Source of the DNA: Deltaproteobacteria bacterium
GTDB lineage: Bacteria; Desulfobacterota; GWC2-55-46
Assembly (NCBI GenBank): GCA_016234855.1
Contig: JACRNO010000025.1
Coordinates: 1 to 35,270, forward strand
DNA length: 35,270 nt
Direction: 5' to 3'
Numbering within the stretch: the stretch's first letter is position 1; every line of letters starts with the position of its first letter. A model generated the notes under the pieces. The model was not told the origin of the DNA, did not search any database, and saw only the letters and a program-made list of their open reading frames with translations. Of this stretch, positions 7,015-17,580 are shown in pieces. A program made the translations under genes and the position numbers.

Positions 7015-7046
7015 GGCCGCACCCGCGCGGGAGCGTGGATTGAGAC
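7015..7046 (+). repeat. Solitary CRISPR-repeat-like sequence (type I-C-like) upstream of adk
   Basis: GGCCGCACCCGCGCGGGAGCGTGGATTGAGAC: imperfect hairpin plus GTGGATTGA(A/G)AC 3' end characteristic of I-C repeats; 19-nt contiguous identity with 9777-9808; ends 16 nt before the adk ATG. Confidence 0.55.
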
Positions 7047-7062
7047 ATTATCGACGAGGTTT

Positions 7063-7722
7063 ATGAATATCATTCTTCTCGGCCCCCCCGGGGCCGGTAA
7101 AGGGACCCAAGGCAAGCTTATTGCCCAGCAATATTCCATACCGCAGATTTCAACGGGCGATATCCTGCGCGCAAACGTCAAGAACAAGACCGCGCTCGGG
7201 CTCAAGGCCAGGGAGTTCATGGACAAAGGCGTGCTCGTGACCGACGATATAGTCGTAGGCATGGTCGAAGACCGCATAGCTATGAAGGATTGTCAGGCCG
7301 GTTTCATACTCGACGGTTTTCCGAGGAATATCAATCAGGCCGGTGTGCTCGGCAGGATGCTCGAAGGCGCGGGAAAGAAGGTCGACTACGTCATCGGCAT
7401 AGAGGTGGACAAGAAGGCCCTTGTCAAGCGTCTTTCCGGCAGGCGCGTATGCAGGAAGTGCGGCGAGAGCTACCATATAGTCTTCAGCCAGCCGCTCAAC
7501 CAGGGCATCTGCGACAAATGCGGCGGCGAGCTGTACCAGAGGGAAGACGACTTGGAAGAGACCATTGCGGCGCGCCTGGACGTCTATGAGCAGGAGACGC
7601 TGCCGCTCGTGGCATATTACACAGAGCGCGGATTGTATCGCGCCATCAACGGCGCTGGGGCGGTAGACATGATAACCGGCGCAATCGTGGAAGCCATTGA
7701 GAAGGGAAAACATAATACTTAA
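7063..7722 (+). CDS. adk: Adenylate kinase, zinc-binding LID type
   Basis: MNIILLGPPGAGKGTQ P-loop; CRKCGESYH...CDKCGGELYQR zinc LID. Confidence 0.98.
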   Translation: MNIILLGPPGAGKGTQGKLIAQQYSIPQISTGDILRANVKNKTALGLKAREFMDKGVLVTDDIVVGMVEDRIAMKDCQAGFILDGFPRNINQAGVLGRMLEGAGKKVDYVIGIEVDKKALVKRLSGRRVCRKCGESYHIVFSQPLNQGICDKCGGELYQREDDLEETIAARLDVYEQETLPLVAYYTERGLYRAINGAGAVDMITGAIVEAIEKGKHNT

Positions 7723-8288
7723 GACTCCTGAGGAGATAGGTATTATGCGGCGCAGCGGCGGCATAGTCGCTTCCGTGTTACAGTCGCTTCGTGAGACGGT
7801 CAGACCCGGGATAACCACGCTCGAACTTGAGCGGTGCGCCGAGGCCGAGATTAAAAGACGCAAGGCCGTTCCGGCGTTCAAAGGGTATAAGGGCTACCCG
7901 TTCTGTCTGTGCACCTCCGTAAAGGAGCAGGTCGTTCACGGCATGCCGTCAAAGAGGGTCTTGAACGACGGCGATATCGTAAGCATTGACGTAGGGGTGC
8001 TATACGACGGTTTCTTCGGGGATGCCGCCATAACCGTGCCCGTAGGCTCCGTTAAAGATGAGGCCGCCGCCTCAGGTGCCTAACTTCGGTCCGCCCGGCG
8101 TAGGTGAGAAACTAAAGCCCGGGATGGTTCTGGCCATCGAGCCTATGATAAACGCTGGCGGCTATAAGGTAAAAGTCCTTGGCGACGGTTGGACGGCGGT
8201 TACGGAGGACGGCGCTCTTTCGGCCCATTTCGAGCACACCGTGGCCGTTACAAAGGAAGGCCCGTTGGTGTTGACGCGGCTGAGCTGA
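7697..8288 (+). pseudogene. map: Type I methionine aminopeptidase, internally deleted and frameshifted
   Basis: N-part 7697-8083 (LKTPEEIGIMRRSGGIVA...[28 protein letters not shown]) and C-part 8058-8288 ([29 protein letters not shown]...FEHTVAVT) in different frames; the roughly 60-70 residues normally between them, including GHGIG, are missing. Confidence 0.85.
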
Positions 8289-9776: not shown

Positions 9777-9808
9777 GCCGCTCCCCGCGCGGGAGCGTGG
9801 ATAGAAAC
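9777..9808 (+). repeat. Solitary CRISPR-repeat-like sequence (type I-C-like) upstream of rpsK
   Basis: GCCGCTCCCCGCGCGGGAGCGTGGATAGAAAC: 32 nt, 7-bp stem CGCTCCC/GGGAGCG, GTGGATAGAAAC tail; ends 15 nt before the rpsK ATG. Confidence 0.6.
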
Positions 9809-9823
9809 TAAAAAAAGAGGCGA

Positions 9824-10201
9824 ATGATGGCGAAGCAGAAGAAGGATAAAAGGTCGGTATCGAAGGCTATTGCCCATATAAAATCCACCTTCAACAACAC
9901 CATGATAACCATAGCGGACCCGGCCGGGAACGTAATCTCGTGGGCGAGCTCCGGCGGACAGGGGTTCAGGGGGTCGAGGAAGGGCACGCCGTTCGCCGCG
10001 CAGGTGGCGGCTGAGAAGGCCGCAAAGAGCGCGATGGACAGCGGCGTAAAGAGCGTTGACGTGTATATCAACGGCCCCGGCTCAGGCAGGGAAGCGGCGC
10101 TCAGGGCGCTTCAGACCGCCGGTTTCGGCATAAGCCTTATCAGAGACGTAACGCCGCTTCCGCACAACGGTTGCAGGCCGCCCAAGAGGCGCAGGGTTTA
10201 A
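9824..10201 (+). CDS. rpsK: 30S ribosomal protein S11
   Basis: S11 sequence ending [18 protein letters not shown]. Confidence 0.98.
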
Positions 10202-10267: not shown

Positions 10268-10300
10268 AAGGCGCCAAAGACACAACGTTAGCGCACAAGG
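10268..10300 (+). repeat. 33-bp direct repeat, copy 1
   Basis: AAGGCGCCAAAGACACAACGTTAGCGCACAAGG, identical to 10408-10440. Confidence 0.95.
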
Positions 10301-10407: not shown

Positions 10408-10440
10408 AAGGCGCCAAAGACACAACGTTAGCGCACAAGG
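10408..10440 (+). repeat. 33-bp direct repeat, copy 2 (just upstream of rpsD RBS)
   Basis: AAGGCGCCAAAGACACAACGTTAGCGCACAAGG, identical to 10268-10300. Confidence 0.95.
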
Positions 10441-17369: not shown

Positions 17370-17580
17370 CAGGCTGTTCAAAAAGCTCCCGACCCATCCT
17401 TCGGATGGGTGCCCCGAAGGCATCGAGGAGCGAGGAATGAGGCTGGGCTCCCGTTGCCGCCAGCCAAAGGCTGGCATTGCAACGGGAAGATTGTCCATAC
17501 GCCGCAATGACGAGCCGGGGCACCCACGCCAAGCGGCGTGGGTCGGATAACGCAGTAGATGGAGCTTTTTCAACAGCCTG
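17370..17580. mobile_element. MITE-like palindromic repeat element (copy 2) between tatA and the tonB-like gene
   Basis: CAGGCTGTTCAAAAAGCTCC (17370-17389) / GGAGCTTTTTCAACAGCCTG (17561-17580), one mismatch; interior GAGGAGCGAGGAATGAGGC and ...GACGARCCGGGGCACCC...GGCGTGGGTCGGATAACG shared with copy 1. Confidence 0.8.

Follow-up and report, generated by a model that had tools for sequence, protein, structure and literature searches.

In this bacterium as in its relatives, solitary type I-C CRISPR repeats are found just ahead of essential genes, on the coding strand, at a frequency far above chance. The window, the whole 35,270-nt stretch of Deltaproteobacteria DNA that was analysed, holds two of them, upstream of adk and of rpsK (Table 1). 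We regard as established that the element is a solitary I-C repeat, that it lies in sense orientation with a strong proximity to start codons both in this genome and across the class, and that its variation in relatives preserves the hairpin. The family consists of a GC hairpin followed by the handle TGGATTGAAAC, placed in sense between operon genes and mostly 0–33 nt before the next start, and it occurs in two families of one class, the first of them uncultured and of Deltaproteobacteria type. Our preferred reading, to which we assign a probability of about one half, is that these copies form a dispersed family of repeat-derived intercistronic hairpins that would ancestrally have been readable by Cas5c, and that are now either passive 5'-UTR hairpins or relics.

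Table 1. Features of the window and solitary copies in its genome and in relatives (distances are from the element to the following start)
Feature	Genome	Position	Strand	Details
Solitary type I-C repeat element upstream of adk	window	7016..7046	+	31 nt, tail TGGATTGAGAC
adk (adenylate kinase)	window	7063..7722	+	Pfam PF00406, E=8e-54
Solitary type I-C CRISPR-repeat element upstream of rpsK	window	9777..9808	+	32-mer GCCGCTCCCCGCGCGGGAGCGTGGATAGAAAC
Stem of rpsK element	window	9779-9785 pairs with 9791-9797		7 bp, 5-nt loop
Tail of rpsK element	window	9798-9808		11 nt, TGGATAGAAAC, equal to the I-C crRNA 5' handle
AGAGG, likely Shine-Dalgarno of rpsK	window	9816..9820	+	between element and start; read from sequence
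rpsK (ribosomal protein S11)	window	9824..10201	+	Pfam PF00411, E=1e-47
Four solitary copies	window's genome		all sense	adk 16 nt, rpsK 15 nt, uppS 5 nt, DUF374 gene 10 nt
Solitary copies	G008			secD 1 nt, gcvT 6 nt, rpmG (after tuf) 14 nt, polysaccharide-deacetylase-like gene 28 nt
Solitary copies	G005			rpmC 3 nt (or about 21 nt to conserved start), MBL-fold gene 10 nt
Solitary copy	G001 (sister species)			rpoZ (after gmk) 15 nt
Solitary copy	G009			gapA 21 nt
Solitary copies	G010 and G017			pyruvate-ferredoxin-oxidoreductase-type gene in each, 27 nt
Solitary copies	G004			cbiD about 8 nt, fimbrial chaperone gene 31 nt
Solitary copies	second family of class (f11)			VapB-like gene 0 nt, unnamed gene 1 nt, Mut7-C-like gene 4 nt
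Copies away from starts				after rplA, after lpxC, after FabH-like gene; four or five more without a near gene

On sequence grounds the element upstream of rpsK is a type I-C repeat, and a chance hairpin is ruled out, because 30 of its 32 positions are identical to the array repeat GTCGCTCCCCGCGCGGGAGCGTGGATTGAAAC of relatives (two positions differ; arrays G005:C12 and G021:C2, from two sister genera of the same family) and because its predicted fold is that of the array repeat, a 7-bp hairpin with an 11-nt tail (−13.3 kcal/mol). By its I-C sequence, hairpin and ATTGAAAC-type 3' end it belongs to the type I-C repeat sequence class. An earlier note on this DNA had described a CRISPR-repeat-like sequence here, 15 nt before rpsK and close to the canonical I-C form with a 7-bp stem, and both its position and its form hold up. 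The 15 nt are counted to the ATG at 9824; going by the starts of relatives, the real rpsK start is possibly the second ATG (9827), which makes the distance 18 nt. The element sits in a ribosomal protein operon, secY-adk-map-infA-rpmJ-rpsM-rpsK-rpsD-rpoA. Insertion of the element as the cause of the long rpsM-rpsK gap was ruled out, this gap measuring 33–593 nt in family members free of the repeat. Searching the window with the covariance models of Rfam 15 returned no family at gathering score.

The element upstream of adk differs from the rpsK element by a loop one base shorter and by one A-A mismatch in the stem; its canonical stem is damaged, and its minimum free energy fold is a shifted hairpin. 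The 19-nt core CCCGCGCGGGAGCGTGGAT is identical in the two elements (7022-7040 in the adk element). Dinucleotide shuffles of the window gave a mean of 0.04 matches to this 19-mer, and one shuffle in 100 reached two. The 19 contiguous nt that had been noted as common to the two copies are thus exact, and so is the observation that they share a strand and a near-equal distance from the start, both lying on the + strand, 15 nt from rpsK and 16 nt from the adk ATG (7063).

When the 19-mer was searched across the genome to which the window belongs (2.30 Mb, 95 contigs, 94.9% complete), not two but four non-coding copies turned up, each with one mismatch or none. The sole further match carries three mismatches and lies inside a coding stretch, and a genome-wide control with the reversed pattern gave zero matches. 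All four copies are in sense and end 5–16 nt before a start. Under a null model that uses our own codon-usage gene calls on ∼94 kb of this genome, 3.6% of intergenic position-strand pairs are followed within 18 nt by a co-directional start, and the chance that this would hold for four of four copies, given an intergenic position, is ∼1.6e-6. The genome-wide search by strand and start distance that the earlier note had proposed thus bore out its prediction, an enrichment 10–20 nt upstream of same-strand starts, which we see genome-wide and again in relatives. We found no CRISPR array in this genome: the four copies are isolated, with no second repeat at spacer distance, and the rpsK element does not have the two or more repeats and regular spacers of a functional type I-C array. 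No neighbouring repeat or leader was seen beside either window copy. A relaxed tail pattern, GCGTGGATNGANAC with one mismatch, gave 11 extra matches, mostly within coding sequence and without a hairpin, and these were rejected; its match upstream of purU (C87) was too weak and was likewise excluded.

Start proximity is not general to the intergenic repeats of this genome, since a 29-bp dispersed repeat, GGCGCCAAAGACACAACGTTAGCGCACAA, does not have such geometry. This control repeat is present in at least 83 copies; of 21 examined loci, 2 have a co-directional start ≤30 nt downstream, whereas all four I-C copies do (Fisher p=0.001; rpsD was taken at its known start in this count). Nearly all examined loci are intergenic, and they are often in tandem with a 29-bp period. 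The repeat follows the pattern GGCGC[CT]AAAGACA[CT]AACGTTAGCGCACAA. Two copies stand in the window, at 10270-10300 and 10410-10440, with 12 nt between the end of the second and the rpsD start; we found no identity for this repeat.

Relatives were searched by sequence patterns and covariance models, with genes named from N-terminal sequence unless stated, and their solitary copies precede a different gene in each genus. In the family, 15 of 22 loci are followed by a co-directional start within 33 nt, where 5.9% of intergenic positions are expected to be (binomial 4e-14; the porC pair of G010 and G017 was entered once, and the 33-nt limit was picked after the data had been seen). By the same limit 18 of 30 loci are start-proximal class-wide, and among the start-proximal copies none is antisense. 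A phylum sample of 297 genomes yielded mainly arrays and array remnants, and solitary copies outside the class were remnant-like and not start-proximal. Weak covariance-model matches (E above about 0.01) fell mostly within ORFs and were excluded. A weak match to the element model in G002 (G002:C101:5632-8175 and C52) is an array with a different 31-nt repeat on a Cas5-gene contig.

Cas5 (Cas5d/Cas5c) is the nuclease that acts on I-C repeats. The 11-nt tail is nearly invariant across copies, and Cas5d leaves an 11-nt 5' handle on I-C crRNAs (PMC5965380). Diverged copies keep their pairing, with GCCTCC/GGAGGC in G005:C4, GCCCTT/AAGGGC in G008:C97 and TTCC/GGAA at rpmC in G005, and the G004:C73 copy has a 10-bp stem. 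Pairing holds in 92.5% of stem cells across 19 copies. Shuffling the 3' arms 5000 times never gave as much, a signal inflated by the covariance model used for the search, which rewards pairing; an earlier, less diverged set of copies gave a weaker signal (8 of 500 shuffles as high). The rebuilding of stems by compensatory changes in several copies, with the tail kept, speaks for a CRISPR-repeat-derived element at the RNA level and against stray repeats. A fixed handle and stem base together with a free upper stem and loop would be the trace expected of recognition by a Cas5d-type nuclease. Where a copy lies ≥14 nt from the start, a Shine-Dalgarno sequence usually fits in between (AGAGG at rpsK, GAGG at adk, AAGGAGG at rpoZ, CGGAGG at gapA), and copies ≤10 nt away mostly have none there, AGGAGG lying upstream of the element at gcvT. 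In these closest copies initiation would depend on the upstream gene, or else the element itself would have to provide or stand in for the initiation region.

As we picture it, the repeat-derived element would work within the mRNA, forming an intercistronic hairpin. With a I-C Cas5 in the cell, it would ancestrally have been cut at the hairpin base, so that the messages on either side would be separated and the downstream one would start with the 11-nt handle. In the window's genome today only a role as a Cas-independent 5'-UTR hairpin, or as a remnant of earlier use, would be left to it, because no Cas5 was detected there: neither Cas5 (PF09704) nor Cas1 (PF01867) was found in this genome, and the controls worked, though at 94.9% completeness a small part of the genome escapes the search. 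No Cas5 turned up in G000, G001, G005, G008, G009, G010 or G017, of which G005, G008, G010 and G017 are copy-rich, and it was found in G002, G003, G004, G011 and G021. Because arrays in G005 and G008 lie at the ends of contigs, an assembly gap may account for their lack of detected Cas5.

Several results argue for an RNA element: the identity to the array repeat, the four sense copies out of four and the start proximity of most family loci; the near absence of such proximity in the control repeat, the covariation of stems beside an intact tail, and the coincidence of the handle with the conserved part; and the remnant-like nature of solitary copies outside the class. Other results argue against it. 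Most copies are near the consensus, as expected of young insertions, the diverged ones were found by a model that rewards pairing, the adk stem is damaged, four family copies lie away from starts (at upstream-gene ends or elsewhere), and Cas5 and Cas1 went undetected. Absence from orthologous loci in relatives, which the earlier note had named as evidence against its idea, is what we found for both the adk and the rpsK copies, the sister species included; intergenic DNA is unalignable between the two species of the genus, so that exact insertion boundaries are not definable. The proposal that the copies serve translation or transcript processing, and are not stray repeats, is thus upheld in part, by covarying stems and enrichment, and weakened by empty orthologous sites and an undetected nuclease. 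Tentatively, and at somewhat less than even odds, we also entertain a chromosomal class of cis-acting RNA derived from I-C repeats in housekeeping leaders, in which hairpin and handle would be under selection and repeat recognition, past or present, would have been recruited for operon processing or control.

A rather unlikely alternative is that the copies are neutral remnants of collapsed or fragmented I-C arrays, or products of illegitimate recombination, that survive where they are harmless, namely in the gap before a start in compact operons. The sense bias would then arise because an A-rich unstructured tail is harmless beside the ATG, whereas a hairpin there blocks initiation. This would fit the lack of detected Cas5 and of any array in the window's genome, the copies missing at orthologous loci, the orphan arrays in G005 and G008, and the array remnants elsewhere in the phylum. 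However, the gaps are long (109 nt at adk, 283 nt at rpsK), so survival in short gaps fails to explain ends 5–16 nt from the start, and the 29-bp repeat of the same genome occupies similar gaps without the geometry. Nor are compensatory stem changes expected of remnants, and the window copies show no adjoining second repeat or leader. Even if the copies are mere remnants, their strand and start-codon bias still calls for a mechanism, because the control repeat of the same genome does not have it. If they are functional, CRISPR repeats have been recruited into housekeeping expression, and offer a natural test of Cas5-type cleavage of cellular mRNAs.

We consider it improbable that the copies belong to a small REP/MITE-type mobile element that arose from a CRISPR repeat and prefers to insert just upstream of starts. 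In its favour, the copies are single and dispersed, stand at genes that differ from genus to genus and turn over fast; intergenic regions are expanded in the same lineages, and an A-rich flank follows the tail, with (AAAC)n runs directly after it in G008:C41, G008:C59 and G004:C83 (L219, L221, L259). Against this, we saw no target-site duplication and identified no mobilising enzyme, and the copies are sense-only and very few (four in the window's genome). The likeness to REP/MITE-type palindromes lies in short hairpins scattered through intergenic regions; the present elements differ from these in being of CRISPR-repeat sequence, very low in copy number, sense-only and start-proximal.

It is very improbable that the elements are RNA anti-CRISPRs (Racr), that is, solitary repeats expressed as decoys of a type I-C system. 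Solitary I-C repeat units do act in this way in phages and prophages (RacrIC1, PMC10651486), but the present elements sit in core ribosomal and metabolic operons outside prophages, no Cas5 target was detected in the window's genome, and a single match was found among 50,697 phage records. A self-targeting guide, in which repeat and gene start would together form a crRNA, was set aside, the would-be protospacer being flanked by the repeat itself, where no proper PAM is expected.

The closest described objects are the solitary repeat units of mobile elements, which have been reported in viruses, proviruses and plasmids, some beside acr genes (PMC10651486). They share with the present elements a single repeat without cas genes; they differ in that ours are chromosomal, in core operons, several per genome and of fixed start-codon geometry. 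The rpsK element, lying in a ribosomal protein operon, is in none of the three locations reported for such units. The type I-C (Cas5d/Cas5c) direct repeat of the G005 and G021 arrays is alike in sequence, 7-bp hairpin and 11-nt 3' tail, but here it occurs in housekeeping mRNA leaders without array, spacer periodicity or nearby cas genes. Among CRISPR-resembling RNAs, creA is likewise a host-reused repeat-like unit outside arrays, and has a spacer-like guide that works with Cascade on a promoter (PMC8730458), whereas here a coding gene follows the repeat directly, in a genome where Cas5 went undetected. Our literature search found no description of chromosomal solitary CRISPR repeats in host gene leaders of the rpsK, secD or rpmC type.

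Three further features of the window were observed. The secY-adk gap is 40–187 nt in G000, G001, G005 and G008 (window, L149, L144, L147), as against mostly 0–13 nt in relatives, and three of these four lineages are the richest in solitary repeats. Compared with the intact gene of the sister species, the map gene (methionine aminopeptidase, 7697-8287) is ∼54 residues short in its central part and shifts frame near 8060, and is either a pseudogene or an assembly fault. Finally, a 72-nt direct repeat (1960-2031 and 17498-17569, 86% identical) is flanked by inverted copies of TTTCAGGCTGCTCAAAAAG and resembles a MITE-like element.
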